The position numbers and the translations under genes were made by a program. A model generated the notes under the pieces. It saw nothing but the letters and a program-made list of their open reading frames with translations, did no database searches and was not told the origin of the DNA. This document shows positions 31,342 to 41,480 of a stretch of DNA of 45,764 nt, in pieces. How positions within the stretch are numbered: position 1 is the stretch's first letter; each line of letters starts with the position of its first letter. Source of the stretch: Vicinamibacteria bacterium (lineage in GTDB: Bacteria > Acidobacteriota > Vicinamibacteria > Marinacidobacterales > SMYC01); NCBI GenBank assembly GCA_035620555.1, contig DASPGQ010000221.1:1-45764 (forward strand), in the 5' to 3' direction.

Positions 31342-32277
31342 TTACAATCTGCGACGCCAGTCGTCGAGCAGATCCCGCAGGGTCTTCGCGAGCGCGTAGC
31401 GCGGCGTCCAGCCGGTCTCCGACCGGAGCCGTCGGTTGCTCCCGACGATGAGGGGGGCATCGATCGTGTGATAAAGCTCGGGGTCGATGCTCACTCGAAC
31501 CCGAGCGTGCGCCAGCGCGACCAGCTGATCGACCACGTCGCGGATCGCCACCGCCTCGCCGCTGCAAACGTTGTACACGCGTCCGGGACGGCCGTGGTCG
31601 ATAATCGCCTCATAGGCGCGAACGACGTCGCGCACGTCGGAAAAGTCCCGGCGCGCCTCCAGGTTGCCAGCCCGAAGAACGGGCTCGCGGAGCCCTTTTT
31701 CACTTTCCGCGACTTGCTTCGCAAAGCTGGAACAAACGTAAACGTCCGACTGCCCCGGACCCGTGTGGTTGAAGGAGCGCGTGAGATAGACGGGCAGCTC
31801 TTCCGCCAGGACGTATTGCTGTCCCAAGAGCTCCTGGGAAACCTTGCTGACGGCGTACGGCGTCTGGGGCCGGAGCACCTGCTCTTCGGAGATCGGCTGG
31901 CTCTCCCGGTCCACGAGACCGTACTGCTGGGCCGACCCCACGAGAAGTACTCGGGGCCTACGCCCGGTGCTCGCCGCGGCCGAGAGTAGATTGTTGGCTC
32001 CGATGACGTTGGTCTCGAGCGTCTTCCGTGCGCTTCCGAAAGAGCGTTCGGGATTCGAGAAGGCTGCGAGGTGATAGATGGTATCGGGAACGAAGGTGCT
32101 CACCGCGTCCGCAAGCGCGTCGTCGTCCAGCAGGTCCACGCCGCGGGTCTCGAATGGCTCGGTGGGGCCGACGTCTTTCGGGAGCACCAGGCCCAGGACC
32201 TCGTGGCCACCTTCGTGAAGGTACGCCGTCAGGTGGCGGCCCACGAAGCCCGCGGCTCCGGTAACGAGCACGCGCAA
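31342..32277 (-). CDS. rmd: GDP-6-deoxy-D-lyxo-4-hexulose reductase (Rmd-like)
   Basis: A 311-aa extended short-chain dehydrogenase. The NAD(P) loop TGAAGFVGRHL is at 6-16; the catalytic set is a Ser in VGSAQQYG plus Tyr-x3-Lys in TPYAVSK; RSFNHTGPGQSD and VYNVCSGEAVAIRDVV match bacterial GDP-4-keto-6-deoxymannose reductases. It would reduce the product of Gmd to GDP-D-rhamnose. The start is TTG at 32277, one base after the gmd stop, so the two steps of the pathway are coded back to back. A related epimerase role (for example GDP-6-deoxytalose) cannot be excluded. Confidence 0.82.
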   Translation of the reverse strand: MRVLVTGAAGFVGRHLTAYLHEGGHEVLGLVLPKDVGPTEPFETRGVDLLDDDALADAVSTFVPDTIYHLAAFSNPERSFGSARKTLETNVIGANNLLSAAASTGRRPRVLLVGSAQQYGLVDRESQPISEEQVLRPQTPYAVSKVSQELLGQQYVLAEELPVYLTRSFNHTGPGQSDVYVCSSFAKQVAESEKGLREPVLRAGNLEARRDFSDVRDVVRAYEAIIDHGRPGRVYNVCSGEAVAIRDVVDQLVALAHARVRVSIDPELYHTIDAPLIVGSNRRLRSETGWTPRYALAKTLRDLLDDWRRRL

Positions 32278-32278
32278 C

Positions 32279-33241
32279 TCAATCGGTCTCCTCTCTCCAG
32301 TAGTCGAGCATGTCGGATAGGGTTTGTTCGTAGGGGATACGAGGGGCCCAGCCCGTCGCCTCGCGAAACTTCGTGCAATCGCCCACGAGAACCGGCACGT
32401 CCGAGGGCCGAAGCCGCTCGGGGTCCTCTTTCACCTCAACGCTGGCGCCGGAGATCTCGAGAAGCATATCGAGCACCGTCCGGATCGAAAAACCCGCGCC
32501 CGAGCAGATGTTATAGGCCTCACCCGGCTCACACCTGCCATCGACCGAAAGCCAGTATCCTCGCACCATGTCGCGGACGTCGGTGAAGTCGCGCTGAGCG
32601 TCGAGATTCCCCACGTGGATGACCGGCGGCTTCCTTCCCTTCTCGATGGCGGCGATCTGTTTGGCGAAATTCGAGGAAACGAAAACGTCTCCGCGCCGAG
32701 GCCCGTCGTGATTGAATCCGCGCGTCCGGACGACTTTCGTGCCGAAGCTCTTGAAATACTGATAGCCGAGATAGTCCTGGCCCACCTTGCTGACGGCGTA
32801 GGGAGAGAGCGGTCTCAAAGGGTTCGTCTCCCGAATCGGGAGCTCGTCCTCCTGCACCAGCCCGTACTCCTCGCTCGAGCAGGCGATCTGAATCCAGGGG
32901 TCGATCCCCACGGAGCGCACCGCCTCGAAGACGTGCAGCTGGCCAATGATGTTCGTTTGCAGCGACTCGGCCGGAGCGTTCCACGACGAGGGAACGAAGC
33001 TCTGGGCAGCCAGGTGGAAGATCCGATCGGGACGAACCCGTTCCATGAGTACTTTGACCGAGCTCTGATCTCTCAGATCGCATTCCAGAAGCGTGATGCT
33101 CCCCTCGATGCTGCGAATATTCTCGGTACGGCTCCGCCAGCGCATCGTTCCGTAGACTTCGACCTCTGGATGCTCGGCCAGAACGAACTCGGCGAGGTGG
33201 CTGCCGGCGAAGCCGGTGATCCCGGTGATCAATATGCGCAA
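32279..33241 (-). CDS. gmd: GDP-mannose 4,6-dehydratase
   Basis: A 320-aa extended short-chain dehydrogenase. The Rossmann loop TGITGFAGSHL is at 6-16; FHLAAQSFVPSSW, the active-site ACSSEEYG, Tyr-x3-Lys in SPYAVSK, and TRGFNHDGPRRGD identify a nucleotide-sugar 4,6-dehydratase of the Gmd group. It converts GDP-mannose to GDP-4-keto-6-deoxymannose, the substrate of the next gene. The start is TTG at 33241 with AGGAGG seven bases upstream. It lies downstream of rmlD, separated by two REP-like palindromes. The product feeds surface polysaccharide. Confidence 0.85.
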   Translation of the reverse strand: MRILITGITGFAGSHLAEFVLAEHPEVEVYGTMRWRSRTENIRSIEGSITLLECDLRDQSSVKVLMERVRPDRIFHLAAQSFVPSSWNAPAESLQTNIIGQLHVFEAVRSVGIDPWIQIACSSEEYGLVQEDELPIRETNPLRPLSPYAVSKVGQDYLGYQYFKSFGTKVVRTRGFNHDGPRRGDVFVSSNFAKQIAAIEKGRKPPVIHVGNLDAQRDFTDVRDMVRGYWLSVDGRCEPGEAYNICSGAGFSIRTVLDMLLEISGASVEVKEDPERLRPSDVPVLVGDCTKFREATGWAPRIPYEQTLSDMLDYWREETD

Positions 33242-33264
33242 GGGATGTCCTCCTTCTTTATGTT

Positions 33265-33307
33265 AATGCCGTGGCGGAACCCGCGACTTACCGGCCGCCA
33301 CGGCTCG
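33265..33307. repeat. REP-like palindromic repeat, copy 1
   Basis: A 43-base element whose arms GCCGTGGCGG and CCGCCACGGC are perfect inverted repeats around a 17-base centre containing CCCGCGACTTACC. It differs from copy 2 at two positions. The following 30-35 bases (GCGGCGCTTTCGCGCC...) also resemble the flank of copy 2, so the full unit may be about 75 bases. Confidence 0.75.
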
Positions 33308-33388
33308 GTCTTTGCGGCGCTTTCGCGCCGGGCTCGCTCCGCTCGCGCAGGGTGGGCTGAAGTTCTTTCATCACCCTGCTCGTGCTCC

Positions 33389-33431
33389 AATGCCGTGGCG
33401 GGACCCGCGACTTACCCGCCGCCACGGCTCG
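33389..33431. repeat. REP-like palindromic repeat, copy 2
   Basis: This is the second 43-base element, in the same orientation, 124 bases after the first. The same 10-base arms are present and the centre reads GACCCGCGACTTACC. Near-identity with copy 1 outside coding sequence suggests a dispersed or tandemly spread element rather than chance. Confidence 0.75.
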
Positions 33432-33557
33432 ACCTCTCCCGGCGCTGCGCGCCGATCTCGCCCGCCTACGCCCTTTGGGCTTCGGCGCGGTTCCGACGTA
33501 GCCTTGGCGAAGTCGAACAGCAGATGCAACGGCTGCGTGTTGTTCTTCGCCATCCCC

Positions 33558-34400
33558 TTAGCTCGAGGCGAGATAGCGCCGAAGCGCATCCAGCCAGCTT
33601 CGCGATGGCTCACCCGTCGTCCGTTCGAAGCGCTCCACGGAAAGGACCGAGTAGCTCGGCCGGCGCGCCAGGCGGCTCAGCTCGCTCGCCTGGACCGGCC
33701 GGATCCTGGGGTTTTCTACTCCAAGCTCCTGTGCCAGCGTCCTTCCGAAGTCGAGCCAGCTCGTTCTCCCTGGGTTTACGTAGTGAAACAGGCCGAGGTG
33801 TCCTCCTTCGACGAGCCGCAACAGGGCTCTCGCGAGCTCACCAGCGCTGGTAGGGGATCCCATCTGGTCCTCGATCAATCGCAGCTCATCTCCCCTCTCC
33901 AGGCGTCCTCGCGCCCAGTCGACGAATCCTTTCCCCGGCCCGTAGAGCCACGCCGTTCGCACGATCACGTGACCCTTAGGGTGGGCCGAGGCAACGCGGC
34001 GTTCCCCTTCGAGCTTCGATCTTCCGTAGCTCGAAAGAGGAGCGGTCACGTCATCCTCCCGGTAGGGCCGGTGTGCCTTTCCATCGAAAACGTAATCGGT
34101 GCTGATGTGGACGACCCCCGCATCCAGCTCCCGGGCCGCCTCGGCCACGTGGGCGGCGCCACCGGCATTCACCTGAAGGGCCCGCTCCGGTTCCCGCTCG
34201 GCGCCGTCGACGTCCGTGTAAGCGGCGCAGTTTATCACGACGGAGGGCGAGAACTCACGAATCGCTCGCCTCACACCGGCCCGATCGGTGATGTCGAGCT
34301 CGGTTCGCGCCAGGCCCGAAACGTCGTGGAACCGCCTGGCCGCCGTCTCCATCACGAGTCTGCCAAGTAGGCCAGAGGCCCCGGTGACGAGGATTCGCAA
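33558..34400 (-). CDS. rmlD: dTDP-4-dehydrorhamnose reductase RmlD
   Basis: A 280-aa reductase. The NAD(P) loop TGASGLLGRLV lies near the N-terminus; VVINCAAYTDVDGAE, ISTDYVFDG, the Tyr-x3-Lys SYGRSKLEGE and RTAWLYGPG are all RmlD signatures. It makes dTDP-L-rhamnose in the last step of the rml pathway; rmlA, B and C are not in the window. The start is the TTG at 34400, four bases after the lptD stop, because LRILVTG matches the family start; the frame is open further upstream but that part runs inside lptD. It is the second gene of the lptD-rmlD-gmd-rmd run. Confidence 0.92.
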   Translation of the reverse strand: MRILVTGASGLLGRLVMETAARRFHDVSGLARTELDITDRAGVRRAIREFSPSVVINCAAYTDVDGAEREPERALQVNAGGAAHVAEAARELDAGVVHISTDYVFDGKAHRPYREDDVTAPLSSYGRSKLEGERRVASAHPKGHVIVRTAWLYGPGKGFVDWARGRLERGDELRLIEDQMGSPTSAGELARALLRLVEGGHLGLFHYVNPGRTSWLDFGRTLAQELGVENPRIRPVQASELSRLARRPSYSVLSVERFERTTGEPSRSWLDALRRYLASS

Positions 34401-34404
34401 GGTT

Positions 34405-36534
34405 TCAGTACACTCTCGACTCTCCCCCGCCGAGCGAAGTACCGAAGCTTCCCACGTTTGCGAGAGTGATGCCGAAGCGGAAGGTGTTCTCGTCTCGTAG
34501 GGAACCAAAATTGAATCGGTTGTACTCGACGAGAAAGCCGCAGCACTGGACGTTGTAGACCGCGCCCGCACGCAGATGCTGGAGCGTTCGGTTCGAGTAG
34601 TCGTAGGCGGAGCCAAAGCTCACCGCAAGCCCCGGCGCGAGATTCACCGAGGTGCCGAGGCGGAAATTGCTGCGGATGACCTCCCGGTCGGGGATGTTGC
34701 GGCGGGTCCAGTTGCCCGAGAGCGAGCCCCAGCGGCCGGAAACGGTCCCGGCAAAGCTGGAGGAACGGACCGCATGGAAATTGAAATCGTAGTCCACGTT
34801 CCAGCTGGCGGTGAGAGCGCGGGACGGCCGGAAGTTCACTCGAGACGTGATGGGCGAGTAGTTGCTCGGGGTGCCGTCCTCGGTGAAGTAAGGCGTCGAG
34901 AACTGACGGTCGTAGAGGGAGGCGTTCGCATCGACGAAGTATCTCTGCGACAACACCCAGGTCAGCATCTCGGTGGGCGTCGATTGCTCCTTCCCGTTCA
35001 CCATCCGCTTGGCAAGAAATCGGTTCACCAGCGAGAAGGCGATCTGGTTCGTTCCCGGGATGTAGTCCTGGCCGTCGAACCGGGGAACCTGGTCGAAGGT
35101 GTCGACGCGCGATCGGTAGCTCCAGAGCATCTGCGGCTCGATCACGTGCTTGAATCGGCTGGCATAACCGTTGCCGGGAGTGTTGAATATCTTGGCAAAT
35201 GTCGGTCCCCGCATGTCGAAGGACGTCTCGTAATACCGACGTTCGATTCCTTCTTCGGGAAGGAATGCGCCCGACGGCGAAAGAGAAGACGTGTAGTAGG
35301 TGTATCGCCCCGTCAGGCTGGTCCGAAACGTCAGAAAACTCAACCCGGTGAACGGGTAGGAGACGACCGGCTGGACGTCGAACCGTTCGTATTCTTGAAG
35401 CTGGTTCCTGTTGGTGCGACCGAGCGAGGATGCCTCCCCGTCGAACGAGAACAGGATGGGCGTTCCCGCGAGCCGGCTCGGTCGGGCCCCGATGGTCACT
35501 CGAGGAAGGATCTCGCGCACGGCAACGTTCTCCCCGAACGACGTGTCGTTTCGATCGAAGAGCACGCGCAGCGTGTACGGGCCCATCGATTTGGATATCG
35601 TCCCCGAGGCCCGCTTGGAGCGCTGCGTGGCTCGGTTGTAGTCCTCTTGGAAACGCTGTTGAAAGTCGAAGCTCGAAAAGTAGTCCACTCTGGCGATCGC
35701 GCGGAAGTCCCCGGGAAGGTTCTGGTTGGCGGCCGCTCTCACCGTGTACTCTTTCTGGTCGTTCGTCGTATCGTCGAGGTAGAAGGTGTCGATCTGGCCG
35801 CGCGAGGCTTCACTCGCCACGTAACGATATTCGGCCGAGCCGCCGTTTCCAATTTGAGAGAAGCGCTCGTAGCTGAACGTCGCGTCCATCGAGCGATTGA
35901 TTGCCCAGAAGAAGCCCTGGGTGAAGAGAAAGCCTTTGATCGACGAGTTCCCAATCTGCGGAAACAAGAAGCCGGTCGATCGGTCTCGCTCGTTGATGGG
36001 GTAGTAGAGAACCGGAGTGTAGAAAACGGGAAGCGATTTCACCTTCAGAAACGCGTTGTGGAGGGCGACGTGGTGGTCGCGTTTGATCGTGGCTTTGCCG
36101 GCGGTGAAATTCCATCGCGGGACGGGTTGGGCGCAGGAGGTGAAGGCTCCGCCTTCGACCACGTAGGTGTCGTCCGACACCTTTTCGATGATGTCTCCAT
36201 AAAAATACAGATCGGCGCCCGCCATTCCGTGGGCGTTGAAGAAGCGGCCGGTCTTGGTCCGGAGATCGGCCTCGAGGCGAGTGGCGATGATCTTCTGATC
36301 TCCCTGCTCGTAGACCACGTTCCCCTCGGCGACAACGCGCATCTCGTCTTCCCAGAACTCGACGCGATCGGCGGTGAGCTGAACATCCTCCGTGCGGATA
36401 TCGACGTAGCCTTCGGCCCGAACGTGGCCCTTGCCGAGCTGCTCCTGAGAGAAGGCTTTGATCGTCGCCTCCTGTTGCCGAGCCTGGAGGCTCGTGGCGA
36501 GCAGAACCAGGAGCGCTGCTCTCCCGATTGGCAT
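34405..36534 (-). CDS. lptD: LPS-assembly protein LptD
   Basis: A 709-aa outer-membrane protein. The signal peptide is MPIGRAALLVLLATSLQA. An OstA/LptA-like beta-jellyroll follows (about 25-135: DVQLTADRVEFWEDEMRVVA, TRLEADLRTKTGRFF), then the LptD barrel (PVFYTPVLYYPINERDRSTG, with many aromatic strand ends). It receives LPS from the periplasmic bridge and inserts it into the outer leaflet with LptE. Its presence shows that the cell is a true LPS-bearing diderm. A TATAAT box (36549-36544) is only nine bases before the ATG and no Shine-Dalgarno is visible. The promoter and first codons are duplicated at 37309-37371. Confidence 0.93.
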   Translation of the reverse strand: MPIGRAALLVLLATSLQARQQEATIKAFSQEQLGKGHVRAEGYVDIRTEDVQLTADRVEFWEDEMRVVAEGNVVYEQGDQKIIATRLEADLRTKTGRFFNAHGMAGADLYFYGDIIEKVSDDTYVVEGGAFTSCAQPVPRWNFTAGKATIKRDHHVALHNAFLKVKSLPVFYTPVLYYPINERDRSTGFLFPQIGNSSIKGFLFTQGFFWAINRSMDATFSYERFSQIGNGGSAEYRYVASEASRGQIDTFYLDDTTNDQKEYTVRAAANQNLPGDFRAIARVDYFSSFDFQQRFQEDYNRATQRSKRASGTISKSMGPYTLRVLFDRNDTSFGENVAVREILPRVTIGARPSRLAGTPILFSFDGEASSLGRTNRNQLQEYERFDVQPVVSYPFTGLSFLTFRTSLTGRYTYYTSSLSPSGAFLPEEGIERRYYETSFDMRGPTFAKIFNTPGNGYASRFKHVIEPQMLWSYRSRVDTFDQVPRFDGQDYIPGTNQIAFSLVNRFLAKRMVNGKEQSTPTEMLTWVLSQRYFVDANASLYDRQFSTPYFTEDGTPSNYSPITSRVNFRPSRALTASWNVDYDFNFHAVRSSSFAGTVSGRWGSLSGNWTRRNIPDREVIRSNFRLGTSVNLAPGLAVSFGSAYDYSNRTLQHLRAGAVYNVQCCGFLVEYNRFNFGSLRDENTFRFGITLANVGSFGTSLGGGESRVY

Positions 36535-37549: not shown

Positions 37550-37791
37550 AACGCACCACAATCTTCGCCGACGAAGAGGTCTTGAGGGAGCTCAAGGTGA
37601 TCGCGAAGAAGGAGAAATCGAACCTCTCCGTCACCATTAGAAAGGCTCTCGAAGACTACGTGAGCAGGCATCGGCGCGGACGCCCCCTTCCTTCCTTTGT
37701 CGGGGTGGGGCGAAGTGGAAGGAAGGACGTAGCGGAGAGGGCCGAGGAGCTGCTGTGGGAGCGGGATGGCTCCCGACGCGAACGCCGTTGA
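37546..37791 (+). CDS. vapB: Ribbon-helix-helix antitoxin (VapB-like)
   Basis: An 81-aa protein starting MKRTTIFADEEVLRELKVIA, with a beta-strand (RTTIFA) and two helices (EEVLRELKVIAKKE and LSVTIRKALEDYVSRH), the CopG/ribbon-helix-helix DNA-binding fold. The C-terminal part (GRSGRKDVAERAEELLWERD) would wrap the PIN toxin. It probably binds the 37519-37549 palindrome as a dimer and represses its own operon. The stop overlaps the toxin start (TTGA), so the two proteins are translated together. Confidence 0.88.
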   Translation: MKRTTIFADEEVLRELKVIAKKEKSNLSVTIRKALEDYVSRHRRGRPLPSFVGVGRSGRKDVAERAEELLWERDGSRRERR

Positions 37792-38204
37792 ACAACATCC
37801 TGGCCGACACCGGACCGCTCTATGCTCTCGCGGATGAGAGCGACGAATGGCATGTCCGGGTTCGGACGTTTCTCGAAGAGTTCTCACCGAGGCTCGTCGT
37901 CCCCGTTACCGTACTTCCGGAAGTGACTTACCTTCTGAGCAAGTTCCTCGGAAGCTCGGCCGAGATCCAATTCGTCGAGTCCGTCCATCGCGGAGAGCTG
38001 CTCCTGGAAGCTGTGACCCGGGCCGACCTGGCACGCTCGATCGAGGTGATGCGCCGCTATGTGGATGCAGAGCTCGGGTTCGTCGACGCGTCCGTTGTCG
38101 CCGTGGCCGAGCGTCTTCGTCTCACGAACGTCCTGACCGTGGATCGCAAGCACTTCGGGATGGTGCGCCCAAGGCATTGTCGGGCCTTCTCACTCTATCC
38201 CTGA
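37788..38204 (+). CDS. vapC: PIN-domain ribonuclease toxin (VapC-like)
   Basis: A 138-aa PIN-domain protein from a TTG start overlapping the vapB stop. The four acidic residues of the Mg2+ site are visible: D7 in ILADTGPLYAL, E45 in VLPEVTYLL, D100 in LGFVDASVVA and D119 in TVDRKHF. VapC toxins cleave tRNA or rRNA when the antitoxin is degraded. The frame is open upstream to 37755 but those residues overlap vapB. The gene is followed after 45 bases by the radical-SAM gene with its own -10 box. Confidence 0.88.
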   Translation: MNNILADTGPLYALADESDEWHVRVRTFLEEFSPRLVVPVTVLPEVTYLLSKFLGSSAEIQFVESVHRGELLLEAVTRADLARSIEVMRRYVDAELGFVDASVVAVAERLRLTNVLTVDRKHFGMVRPRHCRAFSLYP

Positions 38205-38249: not shown

Positions 38250-39638
38250 ATGCGATCGACTCCGAGGAGCGTCCTGCTCCTGTCGTGCTACGAGCTGGGC
38301 CGGAAACCTCTCGGGCTAGCAGTGCCTCTGGCCTTCTTGAGGCGCAGCGGATTTTCCGCACGTGGCATCGACCTTTCGGTCGACCCCCTGGACGAGGCGG
38401 CGGTCGGAAGGGCCGATTTCGTCGGGATCTCGGTTCCGATGCATACCGCCCTGCGTATCGCGCTTCGGCTTTTGCCTCGGATTCGGGCGCTCAATCCGTC
38501 CTGCCATATCTGCTTCTATGGACTGTACGCGACGCTGAACGCCGAGCTGCTTCTCGCGAAAGGCGCCGACTCGGTCCTGAGCGGGGAGTGCGAGGAGGCT
38601 CTGGTCGAGCGGGTCGCCTCCTCAAGAGATCTGGAGAGTCGACCGCGGCCTTTTCGCGTTCGACTCGACTTTCCCGTGCCGGAGATTGCCCAGCTTCCGC
38701 GCCTCGAGCACTACGTGCACTTGGACCGGGGCGACGGCCACCACGTCCCCGTCGGTGCCATCGAGACCACTCGCGGTTGCCTCCATCTCTGCCGCCATTG
38801 CCCCATCCCGCCGATCTACGAGGGGCGCTTCTTCGTCGTGCCCAGGGAAACGGTCCTTGCCGACATCCGGCAGGCGGTCGGGGAAGGCGCGCGCCACATC
38901 GATTTCGTCGATCCCGATTTCCTGAACGGACCCGGTCATGCCCTCGCCATCGTGCGGGCGATGCATCGGGAGTTTCCCGATCTGACGTTCGATTTCACCG
39001 CGAAGGTCGAGCACCTCGTACGGCACCGTGGCATCCTGAAGGAATTCGGCGATTCCGGATGCCTGTTCATCGTCACTGCGGTCGAATCGCTCAGCGACCA
39101 CGTGCTCGAGGTGCTCGACAAAGGCCACTCACGAGCCGACGTGCTCGAAGTGCTCCATGCCACGCGAAGTGCGGGCATCGGCCTGCGACCGACGTTCGTG
39201 CCTTTCACCCCTTGGACGACCCTCGGCGATCATCGTGAGCTACTGCAATGGATTGCGGAAGAGCGGCTCGTCGACGACGTGGAACCGGTGCAACTGGCTC
39301 TGCGGCTGCTCGTTCCCCCGGGCTCGCTCCTCCTCGGAAGGCCGGCCCTGAGCCCGCATCTCGGAAGCCTCGATCCCGAGGCACTGACTTACCGATGGGA
39401 GCACCCCGACCCGGAGATGGATCGGCTCCAACGAGCGAGCCAGAAGCTCGTGGAGAACGCTCTGGTCGAGGGGTGGCCCCATCGCCAGACTCTGGGCAGT
39501 CTCGCCGAGCTCACGGGCGCCTCGCTTCCTGAGCTCGGAGCACCGCGGGCGACTCCGAGACTGACCGAAGCCTGGTTCTGCTGAGCCGAGCCCACCCGGG
39601 ACCAGTTGGGTCCCATCGAACGTCGGCAGCAGCTATAA
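38250..39638 (+). CDS. Radical-SAM protein with predicted Cys-Sec-Ala-Glu-Pro tail (selenoprotein)
   Basis: A predicted 462-aa protein read through TGA at 39582-39584 as selenocysteine (residue 445) to TAA at 39636-39638. Residues 1-125 resemble a B12-binding-like Rossmann domain (VLLLSCYELGRKPLGLAVPL, DFVGISVPMHTAL, GADSVLSGECEEAL) without the DxHxxG cobalamin motif. The radical-SAM cluster is C177-LHL-C181-RH-C184, then PIPPIYEGRF. Just before and after the TGA the codons read Trp-Phe-Cys-TGA-Ala-Glu-Pro. From memory, databases carry a radical-SAM family named for a CUAEP or CCAEP tail, of unknown function, which fits exactly. Without recoding the protein ends at 39584 (444 aa). A TATACT box lies six bases before the ATG. 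The nfu-like gene starts eight bases after the TAA. Confidence 0.85.
39582..39627 (+). promoter_or_regulatory. SECIS-like hairpin downstream of the recoded TGA
   Basis: The stem GGGACC (39598-39603) pairs perfectly with GGTCCC (39609-39614) around the five-base loop AGTTG, with G at loop position 2. A lower helix GCCGA (39585-39589) / TCGGC (39623-39627) brings the TGA to the base of the structure. The TGA-to-loop distance is 19 bases. These values fall in the published range for bacterial SECIS elements as I recall it. Confidence 0.65.
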
Positions 39639-39645
39639 TCGAGGC

Positions 39646-40236
39646 ATGAATACGATCCGTATCACTGCCGAACCCAAGGACGCCAATCACTGCCGCTTCG
39701 TCGTGGACCGTCCCGTCTACCCGGACGGCTCGGTTTTCTTCGGCACGGCCGAGACCGCATCGGGCTCACCTCTGGCCGAGAAGCTCTTCACTATCGACGG
39801 CGTCCAGTCCGTCCTCATTCAGGACGATATCGTGACCGTGGCGGCCGCCACCGGCGGAAACTGGGCACCGATCGCGAAGCAGATCGGCGCCACGATCCGG
39901 GAGGTGCTGACGAGCGGGATAAACCCCGTTTCCGACGACGTCCTCGATTCGATTCCCGATCCCGAGACGATCAAAAAGAAAGTCCAGAACATTCTGGACC
40001 GGGAGATCAACCCGGCAGTGGCAGCTCACGGAGGTTGGATCGAGCTCATCGACGTTCAGAAGAACGAAGTCTTCATCCGCATGGGTGGTGGCTGCGTCGG
40101 CTGCGGCATGGCGGACGTCACCCTCAAGCAGGGCGTCGAGCGCACGATCCGCGAGGCGATCCCGCAGGTGGGCGCCATCATGGACACGACCGATCACGCC
40201 TCGGGACGAAACCCCTACTACAGCCCGGCCAAGTAA
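39646..40236 (+). CDS. Nfu-type Fe-S cluster scaffold/carrier protein
   Basis: A 196-aa protein with an Nfu N-terminal domain (about 1-95: PVYPDGSVFFGTAETASGSP, LFTIDGVQSVLIQDDIVTV) and a C-terminal NifU domain (about 105-185: INPAVAAHGGWIELIDV, then MGGGCVGCGMADVTLKQGVE), with cluster-binding C150 and C153. It carries an Fe-S cluster to target enzymes. It starts only eight bases after the TAA of the radical-SAM gene, so it may supply clusters to that enzyme. A TATAAT box six bases before the ATG could also give a separate leaderless transcript. It converges with the ATP-grasp gene eight bases away. Confidence 0.92.
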   Translation: MNTIRITAEPKDANHCRFVVDRPVYPDGSVFFGTAETASGSPLAEKLFTIDGVQSVLIQDDIVTVAAATGGNWAPIAKQIGATIREVLTSGINPVSDDVLDSIPDPETIKKKVQNILDREINPAVAAHGGWIELIDVQKNEVFIRMGGGCVGCGMADVTLKQGVERTIREAIPQVGAIMDTTDHASGRNPYYSPAK

Positions 40237-40244
40237 GCGGATTC

Positions 40245-41480
40245 TTACTCGATTCTGAAGTCGAGCCGGCGGTGGGCGTCCCGCAGAGCACGCTCCGCCT
40301 CTCCGGGCATATCGGCCCGGGCAAAGATGAACCCGAGATAGCTCGATCCCTCGGGAAGCGGAATCAACCTTTGTCCCCGATGGGCGGTGATGACCACCTC
40401 GGACACTCCTTCGACGGCGCCCGCCGCGGCGAGGCCAGTCACTTCCTCGAGAACCCCTCTTTTCGGTATCGGGATCATCATGACGCCCGCCGCTCGCGAC
40501 TCGCGGCTGATTCCTTTCACGTCTTCTCCGATCGCATGCTTCAGTATCAGCTCTTCGAGAGAAAGCCCCAGACCGAATCGAAGGACCCTGGAGCACAAAC
40601 CGCCAATCGAGCGTCCGGCGATCTCGATGACCGTCGGGCGGCCGCCCTCGGGCAATCGAAGCTCGGCGTGAATTGGACCGTGCCGCAGTCCCAGAGCTTC
40701 GGCGGCGCGGGTCGTCACTTCGAGAATGTCTTCCTGGACAGACTGGTCCAGCCTCGAGGGCGTCACGTAGATGGTCTCCTCGAAGTACGGGCCGTCGAGC
40801 GGATCCGGCTTGTCGAAGAGCGCCAGCGGCTGCAAGCGACCTTCGGTCAGAAGCGCTTCGACGGCAACCTCGACACCGGGAACGAAGTCTTCGATCAAAA
40901 CGAGCTCGGCCTGCTCGCCGCCTCGCCTCCTGAGCTCGGGTGAGGACAGCAACTCGCAAAGCCACTGGAATCCTTCGGAGAAGCTCTGGACATCGTCGGC
41001 GCGAACCACCCCGCGACTTCCCGACAGGAACACCGGCTTGAGGACGACCGGGTACCGCAACGTCGCCCCGAGAGGAACCGGGCTCTCCGCCGTGGACGCC
41101 ACGCGAAATCGTGGAGATGGAACTGCGGCGGAGGCGAGCGCCTCTCGCATGCGATGCTTCGAGCGGGCCCGTTCAGCCGCGAGAGATCCATGATGGGGAA
41201 GTCCGAGACGCGAAGAGATGGAAGCGGCGACGACAGCGGATTCCTCGTCCACGGGCACGATTGCGCTCAGCGGATGAAGCGCGTGAAACCGCGAGACTCG
41301 CTCGGCCGCTCCCGCGGGGTCTAGGAGATCAATCGTCAGAAGTCGGGTTTGCTGAAGCGGCTCGAAAGTGCTCGCCTCCTCCGATGCGACCACGACCTCG
41401 ATTCCGAGTCGATCGGCCGCATACAAGAAGTCTCGCGAACGGTAGGTCGAGGTGGGAAGCAACAGCAAGACCCGATGCAT
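40245..41480 (-). CDS. ATP-grasp domain ligase of unknown substrate
   Basis: A 411-aa ATP-grasp enzyme. An N-terminal pre-ATP-grasp domain (MHRVLLLLPTSTYRSRDFLY) is followed by the ATP-binding core: YPVVLKPVFLSGSRGVVRAD (about 146-165) with its Lys and flexible loop, LVLIEDFVPGVEVAVEALL, and HAELRLPEGGRPTVIEIAGR with the Mg2+-binding acidic/Asn-like cluster (VIEIAGRSIGG). The C-terminal 100 residues resemble the second C-terminal domain of L-amino-acid-ligase-type proteins. It should form an amide or similar bond via an acyl phosphate. The substrate is unknown. It lies tail to tail with the nfu gene; a TAACTT hexamer is five bases before the ATG. Confidence 0.85.
   Translation of the reverse strand: MHRVLLLLPTSTYRSRDFLYAADRLGIEVVVASEEASTFEPLQQTRLLTIDLLDPAGAAERVSRFHALHPLSAIVPVDEESAVVAASISSRLGLPHHGSLAAERARSKHRMREALASAAVPSPRFRVASTAESPVPLGATLRYPVVLKPVFLSGSRGVVRADDVQSFSEGFQWLCELLSSPELRRRGGEQAELVLIEDFVPGVEVAVEALLTEGRLQPLALFDKPDPLDGPYFEETIYVTPSRLDQSVQEDILEVTTRAAEALGLRHGPIHAELRLPEGGRPTVIEIAGRSIGGLCSRVLRFGLGLSLEELILKHAIGEDVKGISRESRAAGVMMIPIPKRGVLEEVTGLAAAGAVEGVSEVVITAHRGQRLIPLPEGSSYLGFIFARADMPGEAERALRDAHRRLDFRIE

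Follow-up and report, generated by a model that had tools for sequence, protein, structure and literature searches.

A predicted selenocysteine-containing CUAEP-tail radical SAM protein, co-inherited with a ligase-type ATP-grasp enzyme, points to an undescribed small-molecule pathway

A radical SAM gene of a Vicinamibacteria bacterium contains, near its 3' end, a UGA codon (39582-39584) whose decoding as selenocysteine (Sec) by SelA, SelB, SelD and tRNA-Sec through a downstream hairpin is well supported by comparison of related sequences. The near-constant co-inheritance of this gene with one predicted to encode an L-amino-acid-ligase-type ATP-grasp enzyme points to an undescribed small-molecule pathway. 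The stretch of DNA analysed, referred to here as the window, corresponds to 45,764 nt of the forward strand of contig DASPGQ010000221.1 (GCA_035620555.1). The features of the window considered in what follows are these:

38250-39638, plus strand: gene encoding the CUAEP-tail radical SAM selenoprotein (462 residues, Sec at 445; NF040546, 615 bits)
38304-38609, plus strand: N-terminal B12-binding-like (Rossmann) domain, residues 19-120 (PF02310, 41.7 bits)
38760-39182, plus strand: radical SAM core, residues 171-311 (PF04055, 49 bits)
39579-39593, plus strand: Cys-Sec-Ala-Glu-Pro tail motif, residues 444-448 (UGA at 39582-39584; invariant in the alignment, with C or U at 445)
39597-39615, plus strand: predicted bacterial SECIS hairpin (stem 39598-39603/39609-39614, loop 39604-39608)
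39646-40236, plus strand: gene encoding a NifU/NfuA-like Fe-S carrier (Nfu_N and NifU domains), starting 7 nt past the selenoprotein gene
40245-41480, minus strand: gene encoding an L-amino-acid-ligase-type ATP-grasp enzyme of 411 residues (ATP-grasp_4, LAL_C2), convergent with the CUAEP gene

The radical SAM frame begins with an ATG at 38250 and, as a table-11 ORF, stops at 39584. When the frame is continued through the TGA, TGC at 39579-39581 corresponds to C444, TGA at 39582-39584 to U445 and GCC GAG CCC at 39585-39593 to A446-P448, followed by 14 further residues (TRDQLGPIERRQQL) and a TAA at 39636-39638. In each of these respects, namely coordinates, codon reading and the placement of U at residue 445, the original prediction agreed exactly with the sequence and its translation. 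That prediction had also named a family of radical SAM proteins defined by a CUAEP or CCAEP tail. Such a family indeed exists, and the assignment was correct, since the protein passes the cut-off of NCBIfam NF040546 (rSAM_CUAEP; 615.4 bits, cut-off 500), matching model positions 1-467 of 468. On the strength of this match, the protein is assigned to the catalogued CUAEP/CCAEP family, from which no tested feature distinguishes it, given that the match is full length, the tail motif is present and Sec or Cys is found at the equivalent position. As a member of a catalogued family, the protein was, in the form first noted, already on file; the NF040546 entry, entitled 'CUAEP/CCAEP-tail radical SAM (seleno)protein', nonetheless offers a name without a function. 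The second-best family match was to ArsL (NF040542, 279 bits).

Examination of the domains revealed a CX3CX2C motif formed by C177, C181 and C184 (38778-38801), all three of which are invariant in an alignment of 57 relatives, in which C271 is nearly invariant. By contrast, the cobalamin motif DxHxxG was not seen in the sequence of the N-terminal domain, such that cobalamin binding by this protein is doubtful. The predicted structure was modelled with a mean pLDDT of 93.9, with residues 441-450 of the tail being modelled less confidently (block mean pLDDT 75), and the solved folds nearest to the model were those of AprD4 (PDB 6fd2), OxsB, MgmA and TsrM (TM about 0.6-0.7).

The tail itself was considered in the same 57 aligned relatives, drawn from many phyla, where E440, W442, C444, C/U445, A446, E447 and P448 are invariant. 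At column 445, 28 members present UGA and 66 Cys, and the frame 3' of this codon is conserved in relatives with TGA as well as in those with TGY. The AEP extension is therefore not a matter of chance, as the tail residues are invariant and the downstream frame is kept with either codon. In this manner, the tail alignment of homologs proposed with the original prediction revealed AEP to be present, preceded by U or C.

The source genome (7.0 Mb, 98% complete) encodes SelB (350 bits), SelA (547 bits) and SelD (286 bits), each scoring over its cut-off, as well as a tRNA-Sec (74 bits) with the anticodon TCA (UCA), so that the selA, selB, selD and tRNA-Sec genes that the original prediction suggested be sought were all found. 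Across the phylum, 396 genomes were surveyed, with 61 containing a protein over the NF040546 cut-off. SelA was present in all 46 genomes with a UGA tail and in 5 of the 10 genomes with a readable Cys tail (Fisher p 6.6e-5).

Because a search of the tail region against Rfam returned neither a SECIS nor any other credible family, the predicted hairpin was addressed by comparative analysis. The hairpin lies 12-13 nt after the UGA, in a fixed register common to UGA-type genes. When pairing was scored in this register in 28 UGA genes, 154 of 168 pairs were formed, a value reached in none of 5000 shuffles (mean 131.8, maximum 144). At least five of the six pairs were formed in 23 of the 28 UGA genes as compared with 7 of the 66 Cys genes, and pairing was lost when the register was slid. 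Compensatory changes were observed in the stem, where one pair occurs as CG, TA or GC and others as GC or AT, while the loop reads CAGUU in nearly all UGA-type genes. Single-sequence folding z-scores barely separated the two groups (UGA mean -0.75, Cys mean -0.04). For the predicted hairpin, it is thus only the fixed-register pairing test that can be taken as decisive, the folding z-scores being weak. With the tail excluded from tree building, parsimony counts up to nine interchanges between Sec and Cys, at least six of which are forced by supported branches. In some Cys-tail genes, for example that of Nitrospirota locus L060, five of the six hairpin pairs form in the register seen in UGA genes and enclose a loop similar to CAGUU, and these hairpins could be relics of a SECIS left after a change from Sec to Cys.

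The Sec insertion predicted at the outset thus draws support from the decoding machinery, the co-occurrence of SelA, the covarying hairpin and the interchange of U and C. The redox or metal-binding swinging tail that this prediction also suggested is an inference. Were the TGA instead a true stop, the protein would end at Cys444 and the AEP-like extension would be due to chance or be a relic. Such a reading would fit the table-11 ORF ending at the TGA and the annotation of a Thermomicrobium roseum homolog as ending at this very point, yet it is highly improbable in the face of an AEP sequence that is invariant after codon 445 in UGA and Cys members alike, the covariation of the SECIS, the Sec machinery encoded in the genome and the presence of SelA in every UGA-tail genome sampled.

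Next to the selenoprotein and NifU-like genes, and transcribed toward them, lies the gene at 40245-41480, whose product contains PF13535 (ATP-grasp_4) and PF18603 (LAL_C2) domains, both scoring over cut-off, and whose best solved relative is the L-amino acid ligase BL00235 (PDB 3vot, E 2e-40). When a profile of ligase orthologs was searched across the 396 genomes of the phylum, 68 were found to contain the ligase. With CUAEP fragments included, 63 genomes contain both genes, 2 the CUAEP gene only, 5 the ligase gene only and 326 neither. The ligase is accordingly found in 63 of 65 CUAEP genomes and in 5 of 331 others, with a p of about 1e-64 that ignores kinship among the genomes and so overstates their independence. 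Since the two genes are not adjacent in 17 genomes, being found on different contigs or far apart (some of these assemblies are fragmented), their co-inheritance reflects more than linkage. The match between ligase and CUAEP gene across scattered families would otherwise be hard to explain, and the assignment of the ligase as a functional partner of the CUAEP enzyme is well supported by this distribution. In one genome without a CUAEP gene over cut-off (G278:C26:6645-8439), the ligase gene adjoins an Nfu_N gene.

The comparison of neighbourhoods took in about 100 related loci, which came from Acidobacteriota, Actinomycetota, Chloroflexota, Nitrospirota and Rokubacteria, among other groups; several clusters of neighbours formed by antisense shadow ORFs of GC-rich genes were discarded. 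The NifU/NfuA-like gene and the ATP-grasp gene emerged as the recurring neighbours of the CUAEP gene. In 42 loci from several phyla with at least 2.5 kb on each side, the ligase gene was found within 3 kb in 35, a NifU-like gene in 35 and both in 33. Gene order and orientation varied, with the ligase gene being upstream or downstream and on either strand. The product of 39646-40236 is the only Nfu_N protein found in the source genome. In the phylum survey, however, Nfu_N proteins were not enriched in CUAEP genomes, although shorter neighbours comprising only a NifU domain escape this search, and many Acidobacteriota loci, several in the class of the source organism among them, lack a NifU-like neighbour. 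An obligate trio that includes the Nfu gene was hence dropped, the gene being a frequent neighbour for which Nfu_N enrichment is absent.

Other sequences were noted in the vicinity of these genes. Directly 3' of the CCAEP gene in 16 mainly actinobacterial loci (L073:6672-7493 and 15 others) is a gene of a conserved family of approximately 270 residues with a WWCTE motif near the C-terminus and no Pfam match, while in Nitrospirota and at certain other loci (L064, L125, L067 and L028, among others) DUF169 (COG2043) genes recur near the CUAEP/CCAEP gene. In the window, a PIN-domain protein, likely a toxin of a toxin-antitoxin pair with no relation to the CUAEP cassette, is encoded directly 5' of the CUAEP gene (37755-38204), and three sugar-nucleotide enzymes are encoded on the minus strand at 31342-34616, one being an RmlD-type reductase and the other two of the GDP-mannose dehydratase/epimerase type. 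On Thermomicrobium roseum plasmid NC_011961.1 (L127:6944-8431), the annotated protein WP_012643191.1 ends ...ESWFC, with the codons that follow reading U-A-E-P, such that the record was probably cut at the Sec codon; the annotated neighbours of this protein include neither ligase nor NifU-like genes.

Taken jointly, these findings can be read as indicating that the Sec-containing CUAEP enzyme and the ligase are the central components of a biosynthetic pathway that has two steps and relies on ArsL-like chemistry, a reading that is preferred here while being given slightly less than an even chance. In such a pathway, a [4Fe-4S] cluster held by C177, C181 and C184 would cleave SAM, and the C-terminal Cys-Sec pair would fold back so as to hold or activate a soft substrate with an affinity for thiols or selenols. 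Onto this substrate a fragment of SAM would then be transferred, most likely 3-amino-3-carboxypropyl if the analogy with ArsL applies. This would give an unusual amino acid, to be coupled by the ligase to a second one, with the NifU-like protein probably supplying or repairing the Fe-S cluster. It may tentatively be proposed, at a lower level of confidence, that an undescribed pathway of this type extends over about ten phyla, with the Cys-Sec tail presenting a soft nucleophile or an unusual element to a SAM-derived radical to yield a new element-containing amino acid and, by action of the ligase, a dipeptide or cofactor. The pathway would then be related to arsinothricin biosynthesis but free of arsenic, and retained as part of ordinary metabolism.

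Three other chemistries deserve consideration. The order of the two steps could be reversed, with the ligase first generating a dipeptide or conjugate that the radical SAM enzyme would then modify by 5'-deoxyadenosyl chemistry, the Cys-Sec pair serving as quencher or reductant. The equal co-inheritance of ligase and CUAEP enzyme is uninformative as to order, and AprD4, OxsB, MgmA and TsrM, the nearest folds, act in other ways on small molecules or proteins; still, ArsL, the closest sequence relative of known function, uses a different chemistry (PMC8552651), and reversal is deemed somewhat unlikely. It is also conceivable, albeit unlikely, that the Cys-Sec tail acts as a metal ligand or redox relay, binding an auxiliary Fe-S cluster or reducing the active site, with the NifU-like neighbour rebuilding the cluster. 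While the presence of that neighbour at many loci and a nearly invariant C271 that could provide a further ligand would be in line with such a role, the only invariant positions are C177, C181, C184, C444 and C/U445, meaning that a second cubane would need outside ligands; moreover, a NifU-like neighbour is missing from many Acidobacteriota loci, and CUAEP genomes show no enrichment of Nfu_N.

With As(III) as the substrate, the pathway would lead to an amino acid resembling arsinothricin and to the corresponding peptide. Kinship with ArsL, the vicinal Cys tail and the ATP-grasp genes found within ArsL clusters all speak in favour of this possibility. The radical SAM family TIGR04167 is presumably the arsenosugar family ArsS. 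That TIGR04167 is classed as a selenoprotein family (PMC13188914) points in the same direction. Nonetheless, arsenic genes were seen neither in the cassette of the window nor among the genes that recur beside CUAEP, and ArsM is not enriched, being present in 43 of 65 CUAEP genomes as compared with 186 of 331 others (p 0.17). Arsenic itself is thus not favoured as the substrate of the CUAEP pathway, and its use is improbable. As a separate matter, several ArsM-like matches in the phylum (e.g., G224, G109, G263, G327) contain one in-frame TGA, with others containing TAA or TAG; some of those with TGA may be selenoprotein arsenite methyltransferases or may merely reflect C-terminal over-extension.

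The CUAEP family is absent from a 2026 review of the prokaryotic selenoproteome (PMC13188914), and no mention of CUAEP, CCAEP or the NCBIfam accessions, nor any paper treating arsinothricin together with ATP-grasp, was found in the literature searched. Within that literature, the SECIS comparison, the correlation with SelA and, above all, the co-inherited ligase appear to be new. Together, the marks of Sec decoding and a near-constant partner provide an orphan family with a two-gene pathway that can be tested, given how the gene pair can be co-expressed and how a natural Cys-only version is available for use in E. coli, allowing the product to be searched for by mass spectrometry.

Comparison with known systems begins with the ligase, which shares its ATP-grasp plus LAL_C2 architecture with BL00235 (PDB 3vot) and BacD but falls far short of the cut-offs when scored against BacD, DdaF and other equivalogs. 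The CUAEP protein, in turn, shares a fold comprising a B12-type domain and a radical SAM barrel with AprD4 (PDB 6fd2), OxsB, TsrM and MgmA, although these are only 14-19% identical to it, perform other chemistry and lack a Cys-Sec tail. Judged by sequence, the closest characterised relative of the CUAEP enzyme is ArsL (NF040542), which acts in arsinothricin biosynthesis and generates an As-containing amino acid in cells (PMC8552651); formation of the C-As bond through radical SAM transfer of a 3-amino-3-carboxypropyl group is summarised in PMC12159101. Homology to ArsL spans residues 8-404 (279 bits) and includes the core motifs DxDF[FL]N and DxTx[KR][VI][ED]H, and in a search of plasmids the ArsL and RCCLKC-tail proteins retrieved were about 32% identical to the CUAEP protein. 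At the same time, the score of 279 bits falls under the ArsL cut-off of 450, such that the chemistry of the CUAEP enzyme may differ from that of ArsL, and the arsQ, arsM, arsR and arsN cluster in which ArsL is set is matched neither by the window nor by the recurring CUAEP neighbours.

In RCCLKC clusters on Priestia, Alicyclobacillus and Pantoea plasmids, an uncharacterised ATP-grasp gene (L129:1738-2961, L130:1448-2680 and L131:6458-7774) is found together with arsenic genes, suggesting that these clusters may join their arsenical amino acid to a further one; no ATP-grasp gene is seen in the Pseudomonas arsL cluster as shown. The window ligase scores higher against 3vot, a ligase of an unrelated pathway, than against the ATP-grasp proteins encoded in ArsL clusters. 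With the latter it shares only about 25% identity, so that the resemblance concerns pathway logic rather than orthology. The likeness extends to the C-terminus, where the vicinal Cys pair of the ArsL sequence RCCLKC parallels the CUAEP tail, which, lying after about 30 more residues than in ArsL, reads FCUAEP, with AEP in place of LKC and Sec in place of Cys. If the analogy with ArsL holds, the formation of element-carbon bonds by radical SAM enzymes would reach beyond arsenic antibiotics.
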